Source: Bacteroidetes bacterium ADurb.Bin145
Lineage (GTDB): Bacteria > Bacteroidota > Bacteroidia > Bacteroidales > VadinHA17
Assembly (NCBI GenBank): GCA_002070505.1
Contig: MWDJ01000006.1
Span: 62,001 to 126,000, forward strand
Reading direction: 5' to 3'
Length of the DNA: 64,000 nt
In this document: positions 20,369 to 58,599 of the stretch, in pieces
Layout: every line of letters begins with the position of its first letter
How positions within the stretch are numbered: the first letter of the stretch is position 1
Made by a program: the position numbers and the translations under genes
Notes under the pieces: model-generated
Told to the model about the DNA's origin: nothing
Database searches by the model: none
Seen by the model: only the letters and a program-made list of their open reading frames with translations

Positions 20369-21523
20369 TTATTGGCTATTTATATACTTATCAAGAAAGA
20401 CTCTTAATCCGCAGACTCTGAAGCCGCCTGATAGGAGGTAATCATCATCATCTTTTATTATAATATAGTTATGAGAAGTTTTAAGGGTTTGTACTGCTTC
20501 TGTGTTACCTCTTGTCGGTCGGGCATCTGATCCGTATTTTATTTCTATCGAAGCCACCGGACGATTGCCCCTGGTAACCACCATATCAAGTTCAGCTCCG
20601 TCGTGAGTTCGATAAAACCAGACTTTCCTGTTTACAGGCAACAGAGGAATAATCTGCTCAATAACAAAACCTTCCCATGATGCGCCCTGCTTGGGATGGC
20701 CAGTAAGTTGTTCCGGATTTTCAATGCCAGATAAATAATGCATAATACCTGAATCACGGATATATACTTTGGGAGATTTCACCAGGCGTTTTTTAATATT
20801 GGTATAAAAAGGTTCTATTATCCGTATTAGAAAAGCATTTCGAAGAAATCCTATATAACTTTTTATTGTGTTTATATTAAGCTCCAGACTTCTTCCAAGT
20901 TCGGCATAATTAAGCAGATTGCCGTGATAATGAGCCAGCATAGTCCATAGTCTTTCACCTGTCAGACTGTCGGCAGGAAATCCAAGATTGGGAAGGTCAC
21001 GCTCAAAGTATGTCTTGACATAATTGTTCATCCAGTTCAGCCAGTATTTGCTTTTCATCAGAGCATCGGGAAACCCTCCGTACATCCATACATTCTCGAT
21101 CTTAAAACTCTTCCCCAGCTCCGGCAAAAGAAAAGGGGTTAATTCGTGATAAGCTATCCTGCCTGCCAGTGACTCAGAACTGTTTCTTAAAAGGTCGGGA
21201 CTTGCTGAACCAAGTATCAGGAACCTGCCAGGGCGTCTGTTCAGATCAATGAGCGCACGAAGGGCAGGGAACAAATCCTTTTTCCTCTGAACCTCATCAA
21301 TGATTACAAGATGATTTTCAAATTGTCTGAGGTATGTCTCAGCATCTTCAAGCTTTAAATAGTCTTTTTGAAACTCAAGATCGAGATATGTTGAGAGTTC
21401 ATATTCTTTTTGGATTTTTCTTGCCAGGGTTGTTTTCCCAACCTGCCTGGGTCCTAATATCGCCACACAGGGAAATCCACTGAGCAAATCTTTCACTATT
21501 TTTTCTGAAATCCTCTCCTTCAT
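20369..21523 (-). CDS. AAA-type ATPase with C-terminal DUF4143 domain
   Basis: A 384-residue member of the widespread family with an N-terminal P-loop ATPase (Walker A LGPRQVGKTT, Walker B VIIDEVQRKKDLFPALRAL, arginine-containing GSASPDLLRNSSESLAGR). The C-terminal DUF4143 part ends in a nuclease-like fold segment (AELDMVVTRGNRPVASIEIK, resembling the D-x(n)-E-x-K arrangement of PD-(D/E)XK enzymes). These genes are common in Bacteroidota and archaea, often laterally spread, and their role is not established. It stands alone; the flanking islands are repeats. Confidence 0.88.
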   Translation of the reverse strand: MKERISEKIVKDLLSGFPCVAILGPRQVGKTTLARKIQKEYELSTYLDLEFQKDYLKLEDAETYLRQFENHLVIIDEVQRKKDLFPALRALIDLNRRPGRFLILGSASPDLLRNSSESLAGRIAYHELTPFLLPELGKSFKIENVWMYGGFPDALMKSKYWLNWMNNYVKTYFERDLPNLGFPADSLTGERLWTMLAHYHGNLLNYAELGRSLELNINTIKSYIGFLRNAFLIRIIEPFYTNIKKRLVKSPKVYIRDSGIMHYLSGIENPEQLTGHPKQGASWEGFVIEQIIPLLPVNRKVWFYRTHDGAELDMVVTRGNRPVASIEIKYGSDARPTRGNTEAVQTLKTSHNYIIIKDDDDYLLSGGFRVCGLRVFLDKYINSQ

Positions 21524-21710
21524 TTAGCAAAGATAGTGAATAAAACACAAAATATGTAATCAAATTACATATATTTAGTATTATCGAAAGAATTATGAAA
21601 GATCAGGAACAATGAAATGCCTTTATGCGGAGAACCTGTTTCTTCAATTATGCCTATATGCCGCAAAGCCATTACCCCTTTAAACCACTTCCGCTTTCCG
21701 CCATCGCGGA

Positions 21711-21728
21711 ATTCCGATTTCTCGGAAT
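21711..21728. repeat. Small hairpin in the repeat island after the TIR-TPR gene
   Basis: ATTCCGA (21711-21717) and TCGGAAT (21722-21728) form a perfect 7-bp stem with a 4-base loop. It sits in the 286-base gap between the DUF4143 gene and the end of the TIR-TPR gene, which otherwise holds only GC-skewed micro-repeats. Confidence 0.45.
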
Positions 21729-21773
21729 CTATGCTGCACTTTGTTCCGCTTCGATCTCCGCTTCGCTTCGAGC

Positions 21774-21819
21774 GCCGTTACGCCGTTACGCCGTTGAGCC
21801 GTTGTACCGTTATTTATAC
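21774..21819. repeat. 46-base repeat overlapping the TIR-TPR stop codon (copy 1)
   Basis: Matches 24085-24130 at 40 of 46 positions without gaps. The unit consists of tandem GCCGTTRC-type repeats running into ACCGTTATTTATAC. The last ten bases encode, on the minus strand, part of the final Tyr-Lys codons and the stop of the TIR-TPR gene. The other copy has the same relation to carB. Confidence 0.8.
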
Positions 21820-23798
21820 GGCAGCCCCATCTTCCGGGCTATCTCCTGGAAGCGGGATTCATCGCGAATAATATCAAAAATCGGCATTCTCAGATAAGGC
21901 AGGTTTGTTTCACGTATTTCGTAGGCCTTTTCCATATATTCCAGGGCTGGTTCTATGTTACCTGCTAAAATATACAGATTTGCCAGCACAAATGGATTGA
22001 CAAAAGTCGAATCCGCTGATATTTTAATAACTTCCGCAGCTTTGTTCAATGCAACAGCGTATCCTGTTTCATTAAAGTCCTGACTAAAATAGTTTCCCAA
22101 ACCTATTCCCCCGTAGTCTTTTTTAATTACTTTCCAGGCTTCATCGTATCTTCCTGTAATGTGCAAAGCCCACTCGAGCGCTGAAAGAGCTACCGGAGCA
22201 GTTGGTTCCATCCGCAAGGCTTTTTCAGCAGCTTTTATCGTTTCTTCGTAACGACGCTCAAATAGTAAATCAATACTGTACAGACTTATTATAAGAGGAT
22301 TATATGGATCCAGTTTCAGGGCTGTCTCAATCTCTGCCATTGCCTCTTCAGTTCTCCCCAATATGTTCAGGAGATGTGAGTAGTATGCACGTGCTTCCGC
22401 ATGATTGGGATTGATCTCAAGTGTCTTTTTAAATGCCGATTCTCCGGCTTCCCAATCCCAAAAACTCCATGTGTTCCCACATGCCTGTGCGAATAATACT
22501 TCAGCATTCGTGCTGTCAAGTTCAATGGCCTTCATTAGTGCATCTGTTCCTTGTCCGGCTTCTTCAGGGGAAATATGTCCCATTTGCACTAATCCACCCC
22601 AGACAAAAGAAATTCCGACATAGGCAGGGGCATATTCCGGGTCTTTTTCTATTGCCAGTTCGAAGTATTTCATTGCTGTTTCAAGGTCATTCGGGGTCAG
22701 TTTTTTCCAGTAAAACATACCTTTCAGCCATGCATCATAAGCTTCAGTGTTTTCTGTGGCCATTTTCTCAATAAGCTGCTTTTCTTCAGGGGATATTACA
22801 GCTTTAAGCTCATTTGCAATAGTCTGTGCCACTTTGCTCTGTATGGAAAAAATGTTGGACAGGTCGCTCAGATCACCGTCATATGTCTCTGACCAGAGAT
22901 GTGTGTCGTTTCTGGCGTCAATAAGCTGAACGGTTATTCTGACAATGTTCCCGACCCTTCTTACACTTCCCTCAAGAATGGCCCTGGCTCCCAGTTCTCT
23001 GGCTATCTCCCTTACAGAAAGCTCTGTATTCCTGTACCGCATGCAAGATGTGCGCGAGATAACCTTCAGATCGCCGATCTTGAAAAGACGGTCAAGGATC
23101 TCATCCATCATCCCGTCGCTGAAATACTGCTGGTCTGGATCAGGACTAAGATTTGTGAACGGCAGTACTGCAAGTGACTTGTCAAGTGGTCCCATCTGTC
23201 CCAGGAAATTCCTTCTGATAGATGGCACAAGAAACAGTACAGCAACCAGTAAAATAATTATTGAGGCCACCGGTACTCCCACCTTTACCCATGAGGATCT
23301 GTAACGATCCGTTCCCGAACCTGGTTTACCGGACTTTCCCAGCTTCAGGGTACCGGTTTTGATAGCTTTTTCAATTTCGTCATCCCTGACCTCATCCTTC
23401 GACAGCAGCATCTTAACCACTTTTGATAAACGGTTTATGTGTTGTTCAAGGGGAGGAGTGAATGCATCGAGCCAGTGGACATCGCTGATGTAATACTCGA
23501 GTTGCTTTGACATTGGCACATCCTCAAGGCGCAGGGTGATGACAGCCAATTTGTTATGCACTGCCCGGTCCACTTCCTTGACAACCTGCGGAGAGCTGTT
23601 CGAATTCTGGGTATAAACGAGGATAAAAACCTTAGCCTCTTTTATGGCATCGATAATGGCTTCAGCAAAGGGTACTCCCGGGGTGATGTCCCGCGGTGCT
23701 ATCCAGCACGAGGTGCCGTTTTGTTCCAGGATGGAACAGACAGTTTCAGCAGCTGTATTGTCGACGCTGGAGTAGCTTATAAAAACATCGTGTGCCAT
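21810..23798 (-). CDS. TIR domain, membrane-anchored TolB-like/TPR protein
   Basis: A 662-residue multidomain protein. Residues 1-130 are a TIR domain (HDVFISYSSVD, then WIAPRDITPG); Glu75 in VVKEVDRA sits where NAD-cleaving TIR enzymes have their catalytic Glu. A single membrane helix lies at about 170-192. Next comes a FlgO/TolB-N-like region (about 205-340; AVLPFTNLSPDPDQQYFSDG, ARELGARAILEGSVRR) often found with adenylate cyclases and CadC-type regulators. At least six TPR units (about 355-650) follow. The TIR part would be cytoplasmic and the TPR part periplasmic. No Thoeris or CBASS partner is adjacent. A role in signalling or stress is inference. Confidence 0.9.
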   Translation of the reverse strand: MAHDVFISYSSVDNTAAETVCSILEQNGTSCWIAPRDITPGVPFAEAIIDAIKEAKVFILVYTQNSNSSPQVVKEVDRAVHNKLAVITLRLEDVPMSKQLEYYISDVHWLDAFTPPLEQHINRLSKVVKMLLSKDEVRDDEIEKAIKTGTLKLGKSGKPGSGTDRYRSSWVKVGVPVASIIILLVAVLFLVPSIRRNFLGQMGPLDKSLAVLPFTNLSPDPDQQYFSDGMMDEILDRLFKIGDLKVISRTSCMRYRNTELSVREIARELGARAILEGSVRRVGNIVRITVQLIDARNDTHLWSETYDGDLSDLSNIFSIQSKVAQTIANELKAVISPEEKQLIEKMATENTEAYDAWLKGMFYWKKLTPNDLETAMKYFELAIEKDPEYAPAYVGISFVWGGLVQMGHISPEEAGQGTDALMKAIELDSTNAEVLFAQACGNTWSFWDWEAGESAFKKTLEINPNHAEARAYYSHLLNILGRTEEAMAEIETALKLDPYNPLIISLYSIDLLFERRYEETIKAAEKALRMEPTAPVALSALEWALHITGRYDEAWKVIKKDYGGIGLGNYFSQDFNETGYAVALNKAAEVIKISADSTFVNPFVLANLYILAGNIEPALEYMEKAYEIRETNLPYLRMPIFDIIRDESRFQEIARKMGLPYK

Positions 23799-23939
23799 CT
23801 ATGGATTTGTTAGGAATGGATTATTATTTTTCCCAGTAATATGTTAAAGGTAAGAAACAGATGGAAATAAGTCAAGAATATTTTGCCCGGAATTAAAGCC
23901 TGAAGTCGGAAATTGCAAGTCCGAAGTCATTTGCGGTTC

Positions 23940-24060
23940 GCCGTCATTCGCTTCGCTGTCATTGGGCCTTCGGCCGTCATTGGGCGCTGCGTGCCGTCAT
24001 TCATTGTCAAACAATTGAATGACCATCGAATGACCATCGAATGACCAAACCTTACCAACT
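23940..24060. repeat. GTCATT/AATGAC palindromic micro-repeat island
   Basis: Repeated GTCATT units alternate with short GC-rich hairpin segments and then reverse into three AATGACCATCG-type units. The centre (23996-24023) is a nearly perfect hairpin with a 3-base loop. This and the adjoining GCCGTTGC tandem repeat fill the 322-base gap between the TIR-TPR start and the carB stop. No gene is credible here. Confidence 0.7.
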
Positions 24061-24084
24061 GCCAATTATGGTCTGCGCCATTCC

Positions 24085-24130
24085 GCCGTTGCGCCGTTGC
24101 GCCGTTGCACCATTTTACCGTTATTTATAC
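24085..24130. repeat. 46-base repeat overlapping the carB stop codon (copy 2)
   Basis: Second copy of the element at 21774-21819, matching at 40 of 46 bases. It includes the stop codon (24121-24123) and the last codons of carB on the minus strand. Confidence 0.8.
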
Positions 24131-27100
24131 TCGTCCCAGCTCTTAATAGCCAGGTTATCGGCTCCCAGCCGGCAGAAAGCCAGGATAAACGCACTGGCCA
24201 GCCTGGCGTTGGTTATAAGCGGTACATTATAATCAACCGCATTCCTCCTGATTGAATAATCGTTATCAAGCTCCGACGCACTGAGATCTTTTGGTATATT
24301 GACTACAAGATCGACTTTCTTCGATCTTATCAGTTCAATAGTGTTCGGAGATTTATCCTCATCGGGCCAGTATGCGACATGAGCTTCAACTCCGGCGTTT
24401 TTAAGGAATTGCTGGGTGCCGCGGGTCGCGTACAGTTTATGACCTCTCTCGCGGAGAGCTTTTGCACTGTTGAGCAACTCCACTTTTGAACGGGCAGGAC
24501 CGGTTGAGAGGAGAATACTTTTCTCAGGGATCCTGTAACCGACGGAAAACATTGCTTTAAGGATAGCTTCATAGAAACCTTCCCCTATGCATCCCACCTC
24601 TCCGGTTGAGGACATGTCAACGCCGAGAACAGGATCGGCTTTAGCCAGGCGGGAGAAACTGAACTGGGGAGCCTTGACGCCTACATAATCAAGTTCAAAG
24701 ACTGATTTATCAGGTTTACCGGCGGGGATCCCAAGCATTACTTTCGTGGCCAGCTCGATCAGATTAGATTTAAGCACTTTTGATACAAAAGGCATGCTGC
24801 GGCTGGCACGCAGGTTGCATTCTATCACCTTGATATCGTTATCCCTTGCAAGATATTGTATGTTAAAGGGACCGGTTATTTTAAGCTCCATTGATATCTG
24901 CCTGGATATTCTCTTTATCCGACGCACTGTTTCAAAATATATCTTCTGAGGGGGAAATACTATTGTAGCATCACCGGAATGGACACCTGCAAACTCCACA
25001 TGCTCACTTATTGCGTAGGCAAGTATTTCTCCATCCCTGGCAACAGCATCCACTTCAATCTCCTTCGCATTCTCGATGAATTCGGATACAACAACCGGAT
25101 ATTGCTTTGAAACCTGGGCAGCCAGATCCAGGAAATGACTGAGCTCATTCCTGTTGGATACTACGTTCATAGCCATTCCCGACAATACATATGAAGGCCT
25201 TATAAGCACTGGAAACCCTATCCGGTCTACAAAATCATAAATATCCTGGACTGATGAGAGCTCTTTCCACCGGGGCTGATCGACCTTCAGTATGTCGAGC
25301 ATCTCTGAGAACTTATGCCGGTTCTCTGCCCTGTCAATTGAAAGGGGGGATGTTCCAAGCACAGGAACTTTTTCCCGGTGAAGCCTCATTGCGAGGTTGT
25401 TAGGGATCTGTCCGCCTACTGACAGTATAACTCCACGGGGTTTTTCGAGGTCAATTATGTCAAGTACCCTTTCAAAAGTTAGTTCGTCGAAGTAAAGCCT
25501 GTCGCAGGTATCATAATCTGTACTTACGGTCTCAGGATTGTAATTGATCATAATCGATCTGAATCCCTCCTTCCTTATAGTATTGACTGCATTCACTGAA
25601 CACCAGTCAAATTCGACACTGGAACCTATCCTGTAGGCGCCTGAGCCAAGGACTATAACAGATCTTCCGTCATTTTCATAATTAATATCATGTTCTGATG
25701 CACTGTAGGTTAGGTAGAGGTAGTTTGTAACAGCAGGATATTCAGCAGCAAGAGTATCGATCTCCCGTACATACGGTACTATACCGAGGGACTTCCTGTA
25801 TTTTCTCACCTTCATCAGGTCGTCGTCGATCTTTGAGGCAGGAGAATGGAGCACATGACGTGTTATCTGAAAATCGCTGAAACCGTGTATTTTAGCATGA
25901 GCAAGCAGATCAACGGGGATGCTTTCTATAGTCTTAAAGCAGGACAGATCATTCTTTATCAGAATAATATTCCTGAGTTTGTAGAGGAACCACTTATCGA
26001 TCTTCGTTAGTTCATAGATCCTATCCACCGGCATGCCTTTATCAAGAGCTTCAGCTATTGAGAATATTCTCATATCCGTAGGTTCGGAAAGTTCTTTTTC
26101 AATATCATCGAACTGTAATTCCCTGTTACCTGTGAAACCGTGCATACCCATTCCGATCATCCTGAGGCCTTTCTGGATGGCTTCTTCGAAGGTCCGGCCG
26201 ATGGCCATTACTTCGCCTACGCTCTTCATGCTGCTTCCAATGGCATGGGAAACCCCTTGAAATTTATTCAGGTCCCACCTTGGTATTTTACAGACCAGAT
26301 AATCAAGTGCAGGTTCGAAACAGGCAGTTGTTGTCTTTGTTACAGAATTCTTAAGTTCATGAAGCCCGTAACCTATACCAAGTTTTGCAGCGATGAAAGC
26401 AAGCGGATAACCGGTTGCTTTGGAAGCCAGAGCGCTGGAGCGGGACAATCGGGCATTCACTTCGATCACCCTGTAATCCTCCGAATCAGGAGAAAGTGCA
26501 TACTGGACATTACATTCTCCCACTATACCTATATGTCTGATTATCCTTATTGAAAGCTCCCTTAGTTTATGATATTCGTTATTTGTTAATGTCTGTGAAG
26601 GAGCGACCACAATGCTTTCTCCGGTATGTATCCCGAGTGGGTCAAAATTCTCCATATTACAGACTGTAATACAGTTATCATACCTGTCACGGACAACCTC
26701 ATATTCCACTTCCTTCCATCCTTTCAGTGACTCTTCGACAAGGACCTGGTTTGTATAGGAAAATGCCCTCGATGCAAGGGTTTTTAGTTCATCGGATGAT
26801 GAAGCGAATCCGCTGCCCTGGCCGCCAAGGGTAAACGCTGAACGGATTATCACAGGGTAGCCAAGCTCACCTGCAGCTTTAAGTGCATCATCAGTGTTGG
26901 ATACAGCAATGCTGCGGGGAGTCTTTACATCGATCTCATTGAGCCTTCTGACAAAGAGTTCCCTGTCCTCGGTGTCATTAATAGCCGATACCGGAGTTCC
27001 CAGAACTTTTACATTATATTCTTCAAAGATGCCTGCCCTGTAAAGTTCAGTACCGCAGTTAAGAGCTGTCTGCCCGCCGAATGAAAGAAGTATGCCGTCT

Positions 27101-27342
27101 GGTCTTTCTTTCTTTATTACCTGTTCGACATAGTATGGGGTCACGGGAAGGAAATAGATCTTGTCTGCAAGCTCCTCCGACGTCTGAACTGTAGCAATAT
27201 TCGGATTTATCAGAACTGTCTTTATTCCTTCTTCTCTCAGCGCTTTTAATGCCTGAGACCCTGAATAATCAAATTCTCCCGCCTCACCTATTTTAAGTGC
27301 GCCTGATCCCAGTATAACAACTTTTTTAATGTCGTCTCTCAT
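24121..27342 (-). CDS. carB: Carbamoyl-phosphate synthase large subunit
   Basis: CarB makes carbamoyl phosphate from bicarbonate, ATP and ammonia supplied by CarA, for both arginine and pyrimidine synthesis. I start at ATG 27342 (1073 residues, MRDDIKKVVILGSGALKIG); the open frame further upstream would cross the ARG-box region and is not CarB-like. Two homologous ATP-grasp halves are visible (GSGALKIGEAGEFDYSGSQA; GSGAYRIGSSVEFDWCS), and a C-terminal MGS-like allosteric domain begins near LLSTGPARSK. It diverges from argR, and carA lies 3.3 kb away on the same strand, with argR-argG-argH between. Confidence 0.98.
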   Translation of the reverse strand: MRDDIKKVVILGSGALKIGEAGEFDYSGSQALKALREEGIKTVLINPNIATVQTSEELADKIYFLPVTPYYVEQVIKKERPDGILLSFGGQTALNCGTELYRAGIFEEYNVKVLGTPVSAINDTEDRELFVRRLNEIDVKTPRSIAVSNTDDALKAAGELGYPVIIRSAFTLGGQGSGFASSSDELKTLASRAFSYTNQVLVEESLKGWKEVEYEVVRDRYDNCITVCNMENFDPLGIHTGESIVVAPSQTLTNNEYHKLRELSIRIIRHIGIVGECNVQYALSPDSEDYRVIEVNARLSRSSALASKATGYPLAFIAAKLGIGYGLHELKNSVTKTTTACFEPALDYLVCKIPRWDLNKFQGVSHAIGSSMKSVGEVMAIGRTFEEAIQKGLRMIGMGMHGFTGNRELQFDDIEKELSEPTDMRIFSIAEALDKGMPVDRIYELTKIDKWFLYKLRNIILIKNDLSCFKTIESIPVDLLAHAKIHGFSDFQITRHVLHSPASKIDDDLMKVRKYRKSLGIVPYVREIDTLAAEYPAVTNYLYLTYSASEHDINYENDGRSVIVLGSGAYRIGSSVEFDWCSVNAVNTIRKEGFRSIMINYNPETVSTDYDTCDRLYFDELTFERVLDIIDLEKPRGVILSVGGQIPNNLAMRLHREKVPVLGTSPLSIDRAENRHKFSEMLDILKVDQPRWKELSSVQDIYDFVDRIGFPVLIRPSYVLSGMAMNVVSNRNELSHFLDLAAQVSKQYPVVVSEFIENAKEIEVDAVARDGEILAYAISEHVEFAGVHSGDATIVFPPQKIYFETVRRIKRISRQISMELKITGPFNIQYLARDNDIKVIECNLRASRSMPFVSKVLKSNLIELATKVMLGIPAGKPDKSVFELDYVGVKAPQFSFSRLAKADPVLGVDMSSTGEVGCIGEGFYEAILKAMFSVGYRIPEKSILLSTGPARSKVELLNSAKALRERGHKLYATRGTQQFLKNAGVEAHVAYWPDEDKSPNTIELIRSKKVDLVVNIPKDLSASELDNDYSIRRNAVDYNVPLITNARLASAFILAFCRLGADNLAIKSWDEYK

Positions 27343-27387
27343 CTCTCTGATTTGGGGTAAAAATAGTATAAAAAATCTTAACAGCAT

Positions 27388-27417
27388 TTTGGCAGACAAA
27401 AAAAATGAATATATTTG
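27388..27417 (+). promoter_or_regulatory. Promoter of argR
   Basis: TTTG (27388-27391), 18 bases, TATATTTG (27410-27417). The predicted start is about 27422, giving a leader of only about 14 bases. The -7 element lies inside the first ARG-box-like site. Confidence 0.6.
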
Positions 27418-27440
27418 CAAAATTATTGAATAAATATGCA
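27406..27440. promoter_or_regulatory. Tandem ARG-box-like operator over the argR promoter and start codon
   Basis: TGAATATATTTGCA (27406-27419) and TGAATAAATATGCA (27427-27440) are near-identical, each a partial palindrome of the TGAATAnnnnTkCA type bound by ArgR proteins. Their 21-bp centre-to-centre spacing equals that of classical tandem ARG boxes. The first box covers the argR -7 element; the second overlaps the ATG. This implies autoregulation of argR-argG and probably control of divergent carB. Confidence 0.75.
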
Positions 27441-27936
27441 AAAAGCTAAACGTCTTTCCGTGATAGAGAAGTTAATTACGGATGAGAATATTTCTTCCCA
27501 GGATGTGCTTCTGAGAAAGCTTCGGGCGAGAAGTATAAGATGTACCCAGGCGACTTTATCGCGCGACTTACGGCAGTTGGGTGCAGGAAGAATAGTTGAT
27601 GGAAAGGGAGGATACAAATATGCAATAACAGACAATCCGGGCGGAAGAATTTCTATGCCGGCCAATATTCAGCTGCTACCTGTTATACGAGATATTGTTG
27701 ACGCTAAAGGGCTTATCGTGATCAGAACACTCCCGGGAAATGCCAGCAATACAGCTTTTTATATTGACAATACATCGAGATATGAGATTGCAGGGACGAT
27801 CGCGGGTGATGATACAATCCTCATAATTCCGAGAGATGGCATTTCAAATTCACAGGCACACACATGCCTTGAGATCATCCTGCCGGGACTGCATGAGCAG
27901 GTTAAGAAAAGCAAACCAGGATATGTGAACCAATAA
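27436..27936 (+). CDS. argR: Arginine repressor ArgR
   Basis: ArgR is an arginine-sensing hexameric repressor. The 166 residues show the winged-helix DNA-binding domain with recognition segment [15 protein letters not shown] (about 36-50). The C-terminal oligomerisation and arginine-binding domain carries the Asp pair Asp125-Asp126 in [17 protein letters not shown], matching the E. coli GDD. It is the first gene of argR-argG-argH, and its own start codon lies within an ARG-box-like sequence. Confidence 0.95.
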
Positions 27937-27964: not shown

Positions 27965-29197
27965 ATGAAAGAAAAAGTGATATTAGCCTACAGCGGAGGG
28001 CTTGATACTTCAGTGATTCTGAAATGGCTTATTGAAAAGGATTATGATGTGGTGGCCTATGTGGCTGATGTCGGACAGGCTGAGAATTTCGATGAGTGCA
28101 GGAAAAAGGCATTGCTTCTTGGAGCGTCAAAAGTGATAATATCTGATCTTAAAAAGGAATTCGTTGAGAATTATGTGTTCAAAGCCATTATGGCTAATGC
28201 TATTTATGAAGACAGGTACCTTTTGGGGACAGCTTTGGCAAGACCACTGATTGCCAAGAAACAGATCGAGGTGGCAAAGCAGGAGGGAGCAACTGCAGTT
28301 GCCCATGGAGCCACAGGCAAAGGCAACGACCAGGTGAGATTTGAACTTTGTTATTATGCTCTTATGCCAGGAGTAAAAGTCATTTCACCATGGAAGGACC
28401 GGGAATTTCTTGCCCAGTTCCAGGGAAGGACAGATCTGCTCAAATATGCTTCCGAGAAAAAGATTCCTGTAAAAGCAAGCATTGACAAGCCATACAGCGA
28501 AGATGAAAATCTGATGCATATCAGTCATGAAGCAGGTATCCTTGAGGATCCGATGTACACCCTTAATAAAAGCATGCTTCAGAAAATGGTCATGCCGCAG
28601 GACGCACCCGACAAAGAAACCCGGATAGTTGTGCATTTCAGGAACGGTCTTCCTGTTAAGTTAATAAACAAGGAGGACGGAACTGTCAAAGAGGATCCTT
28701 ATGAAATGTTTGTTTACCTTAATGAGATCGCCGGTAAAAATGGGATAGGATTGCTTGACATGGTAGAGAACAGATTCGTTGGGATCAAATCGCGTGGCGT
28801 CTATGAAACTCCGGCTGCAACAGTTTTGCATATTGCCCATAAGGACATTGAGGGCATTGCCATGGACAGGGAGGTAATGAGACTTGTAAGCATGCTGACA
28901 CCGAAATTTGCCGAACTAATTTATAATGGTTTCTGGTTCAGTCCTGAAATGGATTTTCTGATGGCAGCCATCCAGAAGAGCCAGGAGCTGATAGATGGAA
29001 GTGTTCATCTGTGTCTGTATAAGGGTAACGTGATAATCGAAGGAAGAGAATCACCTTCTTCATTGTATAACAGTAAGCTCTCAAGCATGGATATTGAAGG
29101 TGGGTTTGATCAGACTGACAGTAAGGGATTTATCAAGATCAATGCTATAAGGCTGATGGCCCACAGGGCTATTGTGGAAGAGAGCAAGGGGAGGTAA
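27965..29197 (+). CDS. argG: Argininosuccinate synthase
   Basis: ArgG joins citrulline and aspartate using ATP. The 410 residues carry the N-type ATP pyrophosphatase loop [16 protein letters not shown] at the N-terminus, [16 protein letters not shown], and [18 protein letters not shown]. It follows argR by 28 bases and is presumably under the same operator. A micro-repeat island starts immediately after its TAA. Confidence 0.97.
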
Positions 29198-29295
29198 GAA
29201 GGTTCAAGGTTCAAGGTTCAAGGTGCAGGGTGAGACAAACTCTAGGCACTCCAGGCACTCCGAACTTAACTTGCAACCTGCAACCTGCACCATTA
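29198..29295. repeat. AAGGTTC/GCAACCT micro-repeat island after argG
   Basis: Directly after the argG stop come three to four tandem AAGGTTC units, then a tandem pair of AGGCACTCC (29244-29252, 29253-29261), then tandem GCAACCT units. GGTGCAGG (29222-29229) and CCTGCACC (29284-29291) are perfect inverted repeats, so the island can fold on itself. It separates argG from argH. Confidence 0.7.
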
Positions 29296-52360: not shown

Positions 52361-52370
52361 GTCGCAGATC

Positions 52371-52495
52371 ACCCTTTTACCCACTCACCCACTCACCCAC
52401 TCCCCCCTTCTCCCTTTCACCCCTTCACCTCTTCACCCCTTCACCCCTTCACCTCTTCAACCTTTTCAACCCCTTCAACCTTTCACCCCTTCAGC
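52371..52495. repeat. CCCACTCA and CCCCTTCA tandem micro-repeats at the end of pgi
   Basis: Three CCCACTCA units lead into many CCCCTTCA/CCTCTTCA/ACCTTTTCA units. The pgi stop codon (52483-52485) and last codons lie inside the array, so the end of the gene is itself a repeat unit. This strongly purine/pyrimidine-skewed tract fills most of the 207-base gap before pgi's neighbour. Confidence 0.8.
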
Positions 52496-53829
52496 CTCTC
52501 CCTCAGCTTCTTCCCCTCTTCTTCGAATCCCGGCTTATTGAGCAACGCAAACATATTCTTCTTATAGGCTTCTACCCCGGGCTGGTCAAAAGGATTGACA
52601 TCAAGAATATAACCGCTGATTGCACAAGCCATCTCAAAGAAGTAGATAAGCTGGCCAAGGTAATACTCATCAAGAACAGGGATATTGATTGTAATTACAG
52701 GTACATTCCCGTCGTTGTGAGCAAGAAGAGTTCCTTTTTCAGCGTTTAGATTTACCTCTGAAAGTCGTTTCCCGGCCAGGTAGTTCAGCTGATCTGAGTC
52801 ATCTTTTTCAGAAGGTATAGTGCACTTTTTTACCGGATTACGGACTGAGATCATGGTCTCAAAGAGAATTCTTTGTCCTTCCTGGATATATTGTCCGAGA
52901 GAATGCAGGTCTGTAGTGAATTCAACTGAGGCAGGGAATAAGCCCTTACCTTCTTTTCCTTCGCTTTCACCATAGAGTTGTTTCCACCATTCAAGGAGGT
53001 AATGAAGCTTCGGGGTGAATCCGACAAGGACCTCTATATGGCGGCCTGTCTGAAGGATAAGATTACGCGCAGCGGCATACATAAGTGATGGATTTGCAGC
53101 TGCGTTCCTGTTGTGCCTGGTAATACCTTCAGCTGCTTTTGCCCCAGTAATAATGGCTTTTATATCAAATCCGCCAACGGCTATGGGAAGAAGACCAACG
53201 GGGGTAAGTACCGAATAGCGTCCTCCCACGTTGTCGGGTATGTCAAAAGTATCATAACCGTTTAAATCGGCCAGGGACCTGAGTGCTCCCCTGGAGCTGT
53301 CGGTAATGGCAATTATTCTGTCAGCGGCGGCAGCTTTACCGACCTTTCGTTCGAGATGATCCTTCAATATCCTGAAAGCTATTGCAGGTTCAGTTGTTGT
53401 GCCGGACTTCGATATTACAATTATGGAGTAATTTCTGTCGTCAAGTATTTCAAGAAGATCAGCCAGGTAGTCTTCACATATATTCTGACCGGCAAACAGG
53501 ATGTCGTGGTGTTTCTTCCTCTGCATGTGAGAGAATGAATGTGAAAGGGCTTCAATCACGGCTTTTGAGCCCAGGTATGAACCTCCAATGCCGATTATCA
53601 CTGTTGTATCGGAGACACTTCTCAAATGCTTTGCAGCTTTTTCAATTTTGTCAAGCTGACTTATTATGTCATCAGGAAGGGAGAACCAGCCCAGGAAGTC
53701 ATTTCCCGCTCCATTTCCGGAATTAAGAGAATCGAGATGGATCACTGACCTTTGAGCAAGGGCAAATACTTCTTCATAGGCAACAAAGCTGCCTGTATTT
53801 TTCAGATCAATACTTAGATTTTCTTTCAT
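52483..53829 (-). CDS. pgi: Glucose-6-phosphate isomerase
   Basis: Pgi interconverts glucose 6-phosphate and fructose 6-phosphate. The 448 residues match the compact Bacillus-type enzyme. Signatures are IGIGGSYLGSKAVIEAL, VVISKSGTTTEPAIAFR-like sequence (IISKSGTTTEPAIAFRIL), and FPASVEFTTDLHSLGQYIQEG with the catalytic Glu/His region. The C-terminus ends within a micro-repeat array. A terminator for the upstream gene separates it from the head-GIN gene. Confidence 0.97.
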   Translation of the reverse strand: MKENLSIDLKNTGSFVAYEEVFALAQRSVIHLDSLNSGNGAGNDFLGWFSLPDDIISQLDKIEKAAKHLRSVSDTTVIIGIGGSYLGSKAVIEALSHSFSHMQRKKHHDILFAGQNICEDYLADLLEILDDRNYSIIVISKSGTTTEPAIAFRILKDHLERKVGKAAAADRIIAITDSSRGALRSLADLNGYDTFDIPDNVGGRYSVLTPVGLLPIAVGGFDIKAIITGAKAAEGITRHNRNAAANPSLMYAAARNLILQTGRHIEVLVGFTPKLHYLLEWWKQLYGESEGKEGKGLFPASVEFTTDLHSLGQYIQEGQRILFETMISVRNPVKKCTIPSEKDDSDQLNYLAGKRLSEVNLNAEKGTLLAHNDGNVPVITINIPVLDEYYLGQLIYFFEMACAISGYILDVNPFDQPGVEAYKKNMFALLNKPGFEEEGKKLRERLKG

Positions 53830-55893: not shown

Positions 55894-56605
55894 ATATCCT
55901 CCTTCCTGTGAGAGATACGAACAGATCGTCAAGCGATCGATGGTTATCAAGCAGTTGCCCGAGTGTTCCCTCTTTGAGAATGACTCCGTTATCCATTATG
56001 ACTATATGATCGCAGAGTTTTTCAGCCTCTTCCATATAGTGAGTTGTGAGGATCATTGAGGTTTCAGATGCTTCTTTAAGCTTTTTCAGGATATCCCATA
56101 TCTCACGTCGCGCATTTGGATCGAGCCCTGTTGTCGGTTCATCAAGAAGAAGTATTGCAGGAGTGTTGATCAGTGCAATCCCTATTGCCAGCCTTTGCCT
56201 CTGGCCTCCCGACAAATTGACAACATACGATTTCCTTTTATCCTGAAGCCCCACAAGGTCAAGTATCTCCTCAACCCGTGGTTTTCCCATGTTAAAGAAA
56301 CTGGCAAAGAGCCTCAGGGTTTCAGTAACCCGTAGTTTATCTATGAACCTTGTTTCCTGGAGAGAAAGCCCGATGATCCGGTGAAGCTCATCTTCATTGC
56401 CTTTCCAGTGCTTCCCCATGATTGTTATCTCACCCTTATCAGGTTTCTGGATACCTTCTATCATTTCGACAAGTGTCGTTTTCCCGGCTCCATTAGGACC
56501 CAGTAATGCAACGAATTTTCCTTTGGGGATATTCAGGTTAATGCCTTTTACTGCCTGAACAGTTTTAAATGACTTCCAGACATCCTTTACTTCAATGACC
56601 ATCAT
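55886..56605 (-). CDS. ABC transporter ATP-binding protein
   Basis: A 239-residue ATPase of the exporter type (CcmA/DrrA-like): Walker [19 protein letters not shown], signature LSGGQRQRLAIGIAL, Walker B ILLLDEPTTGLDPNARR, H-loop LTTHYMEEAEKLCDH. It begins at ATG 56605, overlapping the stop of the propeller/SPOR gene by four bases (ATGA), and its stop overlaps the permease start. The three genes are therefore translationally coupled. Confidence 0.95.
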   Translation of the reverse strand: MMVIEVKDVWKSFKTVQAVKGINLNIPKGKFVALLGPNGAGKTTLVEMIEGIQKPDKGEITIMGKHWKGNEDELHRIIGLSLQETRFIDKLRVTETLRLFASFFNMGKPRVEEILDLVGLQDKRKSYVVNLSGGQRQRLAIGIALINTPAILLLDEPTTGLDPNARREIWDILKKLKEASETSMILTTHYMEEAEKLCDHIVIMDNGVILKEGTLGQLLDNHRSLDDLFVSLTGRRIYE

Positions 56606-58599
56606 CTGAAAAGGGTGATATCCAGCGATCTGACATTATTTCTGAAAGCAGCAACGAAGGCTTGCGGATAACCCAGTTTCCGCATGGCGGACTGGAGCTC
56701 TCTTGCAGGTTCCAGGGTTGTAAATTCTCCGACAGTATAACGGTATTCCTTAAGATAGAAATATATATATGTACTGTATTGCCTTCCATTTACTGTAAGG
56801 CTTGGTATATTTTGCTGTTTTGTGCTCGAAAGGAATTGTACTCTGTACACTATAACATCTCTTAATTCTTCTCTTACCTCGGTAATTACTTTTACGGTAT
56901 CTACCCGGGCTTTTCTCGGCTCGGGCTGTTTAATTTCCTCTTTCTTGACTTCAGCCGGTCCGGGTTCTTCTTTCTTTATTTCAGGAAGTCGGGCTTCTTC
57001 CTTTCTGACTTCAGGTTTTGGTTCTTCCCGTGCAATAACAGGCGCCTGGGGCTGAGCGATTCGTGTGAACAGTGTAAGATCAAGTGTTCTCGTATTATTA
57101 CGGAATGCAGCTACAAAAGCCTGGGGATATCCGGTTTTTCTAAGAGCGAACTGCAGCTGCCTGGCTTCTTCCAGATTGGTGAACTCACCAACGGTATGCC
57201 TGTACTCTTTTTTGTAAAAATACACGTAGGTATCGTAGCTTTTCCCGTCGACAACAACCTTCCTTGAAGCCATCTGTTTTGCACTTGATAGGATCTGCAC
57301 CCTGTAAACAACAACATCCCGCAATTCTTCTCTTACCTGTGTAATTACCTGGATTGTATCAAGCTTAATATCTTTTATTTCTAAAGGTTTGACCTCTTCT
57401 TTTATTATTTCCGGAGCCTTGAATTCTTCAGCTTTTATCGCAGGTTGTTTTACCTCTTCCTTCTTCACTTCAGGAGGTGGGGTTACTTCTTTCCTTTCCT
57501 CGGGTTTTTTAATTTCCTCTTTTTTGACTTCCGGCATAACGATCTCAGCTATAAGCTTTTTATGAGGGAACGTAAGATCCGAGTAGGCAATATTCTGTAA
57601 AGCAACTGAAACATTTGAAATGTTATCAGGTGCTTTAAGATTTTCGAAATTGATTTTATATAATTGTTTTTGAGGATTGTTTGGTTTGTCAGTTGATGTA
57701 TAGAAACCAAACCTGCCTTTCTGCCTGTCGAGAGTCAACGCAACTTCGTCGCCGGGGGTGTTAATTATATTAGTAAGGTTATAGGGTTCTTCCCATCCTT
57801 TACCTGTGAACCTGCACACATATATGTCATATCCTCCAAATCCGGGATGACCGTCAGATGAAAAATACAGGTTATTTGCCGAATCCAGCGACGGGAACAT
57901 CTCGTTTGATTTTGTATTTATAATACTTCCCAGGTTTTCCGGATCCGACCATTTATCGCCTGACCTGCGTGTAAGGAAAAGATCAAATCCTCCCTGTGAA
58001 CCCGGCCTGTCAGATGAGAATATCATCATATTCCCGTCCATTGATACAGTAGGGTGAGTATATACAAAATTGCCAGTGCAAAATTCAAGCGGCGTAGTTC
58101 CGACTTTCCAGGTCCCTGTATTTTTCCCCGGTTGTGAGTAATTTGCCTGGTATATTTTCTCTGCAGGATCCTTTTCACTACGTTTAGTAAAATACATTGT
58201 AGTGAATTCTTTGTTGAAAGTAAGGGCATCGCAGGGATAATTGAAGGAAGGTGAAACCGGGAATACACGGGGATTAACAAGTACAGAGTCCTTGAGAACA
58301 GCATAATATGCCTGGATATTTCCAAAAGAGATATGAACAGGCACCATACGGCTGTAGTTCCTGGATCCGGAAAGGAAAATAATTCCGTCCTTATAAAGCT
58401 GAACACCTGATGAGGGAGGAACAATATTCACATCAAATGAATCAACTGCCACTAACTTTCTGCTCTTAACAGTATCAGGAACCTGGACTGGCAGGCAATA
58501 AGCAGAGGAGAAAAGATCCTCTTTTTCAGACAAAACAATGGTATCTGAATAGCAGTTTATCGAAAGGAGGAATAATATTAAGGCAGAAAGCTTTTTCAT
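56602..58599 (-). CDS. Periplasmic beta-propeller protein with two SPOR domains
   Basis: A 665-residue exported protein. Signal peptide (about 1-18); beta-sandwich-like region; PD40/WD40-like propeller (about 120-320) with repeats such as MMIFSSDRPGSQGGFDLFL and LYFSSDGHPGFGGYDIYV. A Lys/Glu/Pro-rich linker (about 355-415), SPOR-like domain 1 (416-512), a second such linker, and SPOR-like domain 2 (569-665) follow. The two domains are about two-thirds identical, an internal duplication. SPOR domains bind peptidoglycan lacking stem peptides. It lies 18 bases after the PorP gene. It resembles T9SS propeller-OmpA partners of PorP, but with SPOR as the wall anchor. Confidence 0.88.
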   Translation of the reverse strand: MKKLSALILFLLSINCYSDTIVLSEKEDLFSSAYCLPVQVPDTVKSRKLVAVDSFDVNIVPPSSGVQLYKDGIIFLSGSRNYSRMVPVHISFGNIQAYYAVLKDSVLVNPRVFPVSPSFNYPCDALTFNKEFTTMYFTKRSEKDPAEKIYQANYSQPGKNTGTWKVGTTPLEFCTGNFVYTHPTVSMDGNMMIFSSDRPGSQGGFDLFLTRRSGDKWSDPENLGSIINTKSNEMFPSLDSANNLYFSSDGHPGFGGYDIYVCRFTGKGWEEPYNLTNIINTPGDEVALTLDRQKGRFGFYTSTDKPNNPQKQLYKINFENLKAPDNISNVSVALQNIAYSDLTFPHKKLIAEIVMPEVKKEEIKKPEERKEVTPPPEVKKEEVKQPAIKAEEFKAPEIIKEEVKPLEIKDIKLDTIQVITQVREELRDVVVYRVQILSSAKQMASRKVVVDGKSYDTYVYFYKKEYRHTVGEFTNLEEARQLQFALRKTGYPQAFVAAFRNNTRTLDLTLFTRIAQPQAPVIAREEPKPEVRKEEARLPEIKKEEPGPAEVKKEEIKQPEPRKARVDTVKVITEVREELRDVIVYRVQFLSSTKQQNIPSLTVNGRQYSTYIYFYLKEYRYTVGEFTTLEPARELQSAMRKLGYPQAFVAAFRNNVRSLDITLFR

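Follow-up and report, generated by a model that had tools for sequence, protein, structure and literature searches.

Why should two unrelated genes end in the same sequence? The question is raised by a stretch of 64,000 nucleotides from an uncultured Bacteroidales genus (G000:C6:62001-126000, in a genome of 3.95 Mb and 218 contigs), hereafter the window, in which two blocks at 21774-21819 and 24085-24130 each take in the stop codon of a minus-strand gene, the one encoding a TIR-TPR protein and the other being carB. The initial annotation of this DNA described the blocks as a 46-base repeat matching at 40 positions, ascribed it to a mobile micro-repeat or to gene conversion between neighbouring termini, and suggested that the repeat might impose the Tyr-Lys end of both proteins. 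The ungapped match of 40/46 was reproduced at exactly these coordinates. The blocks consist largely of tandem octamers, and about half of the testable arrays of this kind begin at, or within six bases of, a stop codon, the genes concerned being unrelated and the G-richer strand lying on their sense side.

Two octamer arrays flush with two stop codons

On the plus strand the repeat unit is RCCGTTNN, and in the sense of the genes both loci read as a stop codon followed by (AACGGYNN)n. The TIR-TPR block reads GCCGTTAC GCCGTTAC GCCGTTGA GCCGTTGT ACCGTTA and the carB block (GCCATTCC) GCCGTTGC GCCGTTGC GCCGTTGC ACCATTTT ACCGTTA, the final A of each completing TTA, the reversed stop codon of the minus-strand gene. 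The last ten bases of the block, TTATTTATAC, are in both open reading frames (ORFs) the stop with the preceding Lys and Tyr codons, as had been noticed, and one base more; the remainder of each block is array. About five 8-base units and ten bases of the coding ends of both genes therefore make up the 46 bases, so that the tandem octamer array in the first description stands and the single 46-base repeat does not.

The array at the TIR-TPR stop (21774..21812, minus strand; gene-sense [TAA]CGGTACAACGGCTCAACGGCGTAACGGCGTAACGGC), in which the AA of the stop codon is part of the first unit, is flush with the end of the TIR-TPR protein gene (21810..23798, minus strand; 662 residues ending in ...GLPYK*, with Pfam TIR_2 and TPR). 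The array at the carB stop (24077..24123, minus strand; gene-sense [TAA]CGGTAAAATGGTGCAACGGCGCAACGGCGCAACGGCGGAATGGC) begins at 24077, one unit earlier than first noted, and is likewise flush with the stop of carB (24121..27441, minus strand), which encodes the large chain of carbamoyl-phosphate synthase (1106 residues ending in ...IKSWDEYK*, with Pfam CPSase_L domains and MGS). A four-unit pattern allowing up to three mismatches has five matches in the window, all within these two arrays, and none in 100 shuffles. The spacer between carB and the TIR-TPR gene holds further short repeated phrases (23926-24047), namely AATGACGGC with small palindromes and then GAATGACCATC in 2.8 copies.

Anchoring and strand polarity of the octamer arrays

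A total of 47 octamer arrays was assembled from own-genome stretches around pattern matches and, mostly, one 3-kb locus per relative; the search pattern demanded three units, which biases the distribution of array lengths. When all are oriented as RCCGTT, the stop of a gene running towards the array is no more than 12 bp from the right edge in 19/47; the left edge is that near to a stop in 3/47, one of these having a stop at both edges. The placement test was applied to 36 arrays, eleven being omitted (five with a missing flank and six inside a called ORF). In seventeen of the 36 a sense stop is no more than 6 bp from the beginning of the array; placing the arrays at random in the same gaps predicts 2.8, and 17 was not reached in any of 50,000 simulations. 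In the opposite polarity a single array of the 36 is as close as this to a stop (1.5 expected), and a single one is as close to a start codon. The preference of the repeat for stop codons, on which the idea of 3' targeting had depended, is thus borne out, and it is retained in 15/34 arrays when the two window arrays are left aside. Two pairs of sites are orthologous (L080 with L097, and L137, in the window, with L140); without both window arrays, L140 and L097, the count is 13/32, against 2.6 expected.

The 17 anchored arrays occupy 12 co-directional and 5 convergent gaps, and up to 389 bp is free on the far side of arrays flush with a stop. Besides CarB and the TIR-TPR protein, the anchored genes include by Pfam an EPSP-synthase-family gene (MurA-type), a succinate dehydrogenase flavoprotein-type gene, a tRNA methyl transferase-type gene (MnmA-like) and QueA. 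The phase in which stop and array are joined differs from site to site (TAACGG, TAA-AACGG, TAG-AACGG, TAAACGG, TAG-A-AACGG), which rules out a single copied junction as the cause, and array lengths differ also. At two loci, L093 and L099, the array reaches into the last codons and provides the stop, the protein at L093 ending Lys-Lys-Ala-stop inside the array; encroachment on coding ends thus occurs, but not at carB or the TIR-TPR gene.

Distribution of the octamer family

Three consecutive exact RCCGTTNN units were matched 22+4 times in the own genome and the reversed pattern not at all. With up to three mismatches, three copies of GCCGTTNN gave 56+20 matches in 32 separate places, compared with 2+4 for the reversed control, and a stricter rule recognised 15 octamer arrays in the own-genome stretches read. 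The exact pattern is present in 31 of the 57 other genomes of the genus and in none of 40 genomes of the order's other families; the reversed-pattern control had one match each in 3/98 genomes, and a single match was found in 1/394 other phylum genomes. The octamer family is therefore nearly limited to the genus. It is the octamer array that is dispersed and not the 46-mer itself, since CCGTTATTTATAC has exact copies at the two window sites only, the reversed control outnumbers it at one mismatch (22 against 7 places), and the phase of the junction is not constant; a fixed 46-mer was accordingly rejected as the dispersed unit.

Beside AACGGYNN, looser gene-sense forms are found, among them AAAGGCGT, AAGGGTGC and AATGGCAT. 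A broader sense unit, AANGGYNY, gave at a threshold of 21.5 five arrays in the own genome, two in the genus sample and two outside, too few for statistics. The stricter octamer pattern also occurs in eight stretches (L330-L337) on seven contigs classed as viral, which are either phage or mis-sorted host DNA.

Protein ends in relatives of CarB and the TIR-TPR protein

Comparisons were made on the best 30 loci per search (own included), drawn from 57 matching genomes for carB and 24 for the TIR-TPR gene, again with the own genome included. CarB ends in YK* in 28/29 genus relatives, whose sequences past the stop are quite different, and the octamer follows the carB stop in none of these 29 within the up to 90 bases viewed (two flanks being shortened by contig ends). 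For the TIR-TPR family, 24 of the 30 loci aligned in the last 200 residues, and removal of the own gene, a duplicate and an end that was cut left 21 readable ends. PYK* ends were present in 8/21, including that of a paralogue in the same genome (G000:C35:21118-23109), which has no array. As relatives end alike without an array, the ten shared coding bases derive from two separate protein ends; the Tyr-Lys ends are, on this comparison of sequences, older than the arrays and their match coincidental. The suggestion that the repeat imposes Tyr-Lys was rejected on the same counts.

In G056 a TIR-TPR relative combines the PYK* end with an octamer array that directly abuts the stop. Compared with the window gene, 109 of the last 150 coding bases are alike and 30/38 in the array, and the sequence beyond is alike at 15/60, the level of chance, which would fit a joint inheritance of gene and array. 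A different phrase, CCTTCGCTA...AAAGCTTCGG, stands just past the stops of unrelated genes in L140 (G056) and L118 (G017), and looks like a dispersed palindrome of REP type. TIR-TPR proteins are expanded in parts of the genus, with matches in 24/58 genomes (own included) and at least 20 scored matches in G031. A second carB-like gene of the own genome, at G000:C9:17264-20431, has 41% identity to the window CarB.

Other words at the same orthologous stops

The flanks of carB were examined in a set of 30, made up of the own genome, 27 genus relatives, and L169 and L170, which were taken as members of the genus by identity. The first 50 bases past the stop were periodic in 11/30, where shuffles predict 1.2, with units that include GATAAAA, AAGGTT, AGACAAA, GAGGGCGT, AGGCGAC, GGTGAGT and others, and the mean sense-strand purine content of these periodic flanks was 0.77. 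At 74 carB loci taken as outside the genus, six flanks were periodic (0.3 expected). For MurA the best 30 loci of 52 genomes were taken, of which 29 ends were read, and for QueA the best 30 of 53, all 30 being read; periodic 3' flanks were found in 8/29 and 7/30, respectively (own included). By eye, several of these flanks carry the looser octamer members AAAGGCGT, AATGGCAT and AAGGGTGC. The C-terminus of QueA is AML-x-x, or nearly so, throughout, and MurA ends vary by one or two residues. At orthologous stops, then, other species show other words, looser octamers or no array, and the recurrence of periodic flanks with changed words at the stops of carB, MurA and QueA indicates that arrays persist or recur there.

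Short-unit arrays in samples not chosen for repeats

The window was chosen for this finding, and short-unit arrays were therefore also counted in 578 kb of the own genome without it, in a genus sample, and in an outside-genus sample (L174-L246 and L287-L306) assigned by CarB identity or family labels. Of 105 short-unit arrays, counted with the window included, 70 are intergenic, though about 90% of bases are called coding. In the own genome without the window, a stop is no more than 10 bp away for 12 of 41 intergenic arrays, against an expectation of 6.1 (P 0.001), and a start is that close for five, against 5.1, and G exceeds C on the sense strand in 13/16 near-stop arrays compared with 3/11 far ones. 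With the window included, 16/46 are near stops and G exceeds C in 17/20 near and 4/12 far. The genus sample has 6/21 near stops (1.4 expected) and none near starts (1.2 expected), and outside the genus G exceeds C in 15/20 near and 6/23 far (one tie). Periodic first-48-base segments were found after stops, before starts and in mid-gap, respectively, in 11/169, 1/227 and 5/118 cases in the own genome without the window, in 4/195, 2/265 and 1/130 in the genus sample, and in 11/282, 6/316 and 1/178 outside the genus.

Two further arrays of similar kind in the window also fit the rule of stop-side placement. One, (AAGGTTC) in 3.7 copies on the plus strand (29199..29224), begins one base past the stop (29195-29197) of ORF 27965..29197; the other, of 15.4 copies with the gene-sense unit AGGGGTGA (52369..52493, minus strand), overruns the stop of the minus-strand ORF 52483..53829 by 11 bases. 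A 30-base repeat in 2.7 copies is also present at 56935-57015, within ORF 56602..58599.

Structure of the arrays

As RNA, both window arrays fold less well than their shuffles (z +1.3 and +1.5), and none of the three terminator-like sites in 21500-24300 is at an array; a hairpin or intrinsic terminator is therefore unsupported. A trap of stop codons in all frames is not general, as units such as AACGGCGC and AACGGTGC contain no stop codon. A CRISPR array was ruled out, the 8-base units running head to tail with no unique spacers. As to the inverted repeats or palindromic unit of REP and MITE elements, the arrays themselves are direct octamers with poor RNA folding. By eye, GG is constant within arrays whose remaining positions vary. 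Among 493 stop flanks assembled for column conservation, 67 were periodic, compared with five in shuffles, and the conservation of G-majority over C columns (0.74 vs 0.67, or 0.69 vs 0.59 at a looser threshold) was not decisive.

Origin and maintenance of the arrays

The explanation that we favour, at about an even chance, is that the arrays are octamer satellites born by slippage and kept at the 3' ends of genes, with transcription setting their polarity. An array would be born and renewed by replication slippage of units of 7-9 bases just past the stop, in a stretch that begins at the stop codon and is possibly transcribed but untranslated. Growth upstream would be blocked by coding selection, and growth beside start codons disfavoured by promoter and translation-start signals. 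Polarity may come from transcription, in that nascent RNA past the stop is expected to be free of ribosomes and, where G-rich, could re-pair with the template and so promote slippage in that orientation; alternatively, selection against C-rich RNA past the stop may be its source.

Several observations weigh against this explanation. By our own ORF calls, which follow a home-made longest-ORF rule, a sense stop is missing from the 12 bp beside 28/47 octamer arrays, 18/47 have a start codon as their neighbour on that side, and three arrays have a stop within that distance but in the opposite polarity. (Among loci whose arrays lack a sense stop, three tRNA genes were found in 2/22 scanned, none within 60 bp of the array.) In the genus sample the contrast between near and far arrays fails, G exceeding C in 5/7 near (one tie) and 7/11 far. 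The mean purine content of periodic flanks is just 0.60 for MurA and 0.61 for QueA, and the single flanks L342 and L378 are pyrimidine-rich, with less than 0.5 purine. Outside the genus, 18/49 arrays are near stops (8.6 expected) and starts are favoured too (13, with 7.5 expected), so that the positional trend is not peculiar to the genus.

The strongest rival, possible though clearly less probable, is that the arrays are functional 3' RNA elements, in which GG every eight bases of an untranslated tail serves as a binding site for a protein, or as a mark or protection of the mRNA end, suitable G-rich arrays being interchangeable. Polarity and stop anchoring would follow from such a role, as would the constant GG amid varying positions and the recurrence of periodic flanks at one orthologous stop from species to species (MurA 8/29, QueA 7/30), and the TIR-TPR array, 30/38 alike in a second species where the sequence beyond is at chance (15/60) and the coding end at 109/150, is compatible with it. 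Against these stand the G columns, just slightly better conserved than C columns (0.74 vs 0.67; 0.69 vs 0.59), the absence of the octamer from all 29 carB relatives, the lack of an obvious common theme among the Pfam-named genes, and the 67/493 periodic stop flanks, which leave most genes without such an array. A bolder and rather doubtful proposal joins birth and function: stop codons of the genus might be recurrent birth sites of one-way G-rich octamer or heptamer arrays that act as a sequence-tolerant 3' RNA signal, its essence being a beat of GG at intervals of 7-8 bases immediately past the last ribosome, the words being swapped while beat and strand are kept.

Passive accumulation, in which any non-coding DNA can give rise to tandem repeats and selection purges them from genes and promoters so that survivors are left near stops, is improbable. 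Short-unit arrays do avoid genes (70/105 intergenic), and a similar trend is seen at loci outside the genus, but arrays are flush with the stop, far above random placement, despite as much as 389 bp free opposite, and filtering alone predicts no strand polarity.

The two mechanisms first put forward, a mobile micro-repeat entering 3' ends or gene conversion between neighbouring gene ends, appear very unlikely. Both would account for an array common to unrelated genes and an octamer at dispersed sites, and the carB and TIR-TPR arrays, compared in register from the stop, share second place among 171 pairs (0.83), three same-phase pairs following closely at 0.81. When shifts are allowed, however, this pair ranks 35 of 105 own-genome array pairs, and gene conversion between the two ends is not required. 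Variable junction phase and variable array length together make an element targeting 3' ends unlikely, and relatives that lack the array have similar C-termini. Chance or an assembly artefact as the source of the shared 46 bases can practically be dismissed, as the coincidence of two Tyr-Lys-stop ends, also present in relatives, would explain the ten coding bases, but the octamer pattern had no match in 100 shuffles and exact arrays of it occur in 31 other genomes of the genus.

Relation to known repeats and significance

Short intergenic tandem words are familiar from the STRR heptamers of cyanobacteria, from which the present unit differs in being an octamer. The closest known kind is the GGGNATC heptamer of Xanthomonas and Nostoc, a dispersed and mostly intergenic tandem repeat whose function is given as unknown, which prefers four units per array, and for which formation of G-quadruplexes has been considered; where it follows a gene, most copies are on the coding strand at a distance of 0-50 bp from the stop codon, and some run over it (Rehm et al. 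2015, PMC4692102). Like these repeats (PMC4692102), the octamer arrays lie within 50 bp of the stop and are G-rich on the coding strand, with 17/36 within 6 bp and G exceeding C in 13/16. Unlike in them, about half of the testable arrays start at 6 bp or less from the stop, the unit AACGGYNN is an octamer and not a heptamer, an unrelated word in another phylum, and the window arrays have GG at most and no G-tracts of three (PMC4692102), so that an explanation by G-quadruplexes fits poorly.

The TAACTGA heptamers of Beggiatoaceae, Cyanobacteria and some Bacteroidetes are intergenic, with 13 sets overlapping the stop of the upstream gene and a spread that is left unexplained; in the main genome they lie mostly just before start codons and supply stop codons in all frames (MacGregor 2015, PMC4679880). 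Unlike these (PMC4679880), the octamer arrays follow stops (1/36 within 6 bp of a start) and include units such as AACGGCGC without a stop codon. A survey of short tandem repeats from 2025 reports a high repeat density in Bacteroidota (PMC12699852). No account of stop-anchored octamers in Bacteroidales was found among the papers listed by text searches, subscription papers being mostly outside their scope. Stop-proximal satellites of bacteria are already known, and the octamer arrays are a variant of them with a real and tight pattern.

A similar rule of place and strand in another phylum, with a word that has GG only, weakens an account by quadruplexes and directs attention to the site at which ribosomes come off the message. 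The presence of other words at the same orthologous stops of carB, MurA and QueA means that a mutational process and an RNA function can be tested against each other by comparison and by simple reporters. Taken as a whole, the pattern points to something happening at the end of translation.

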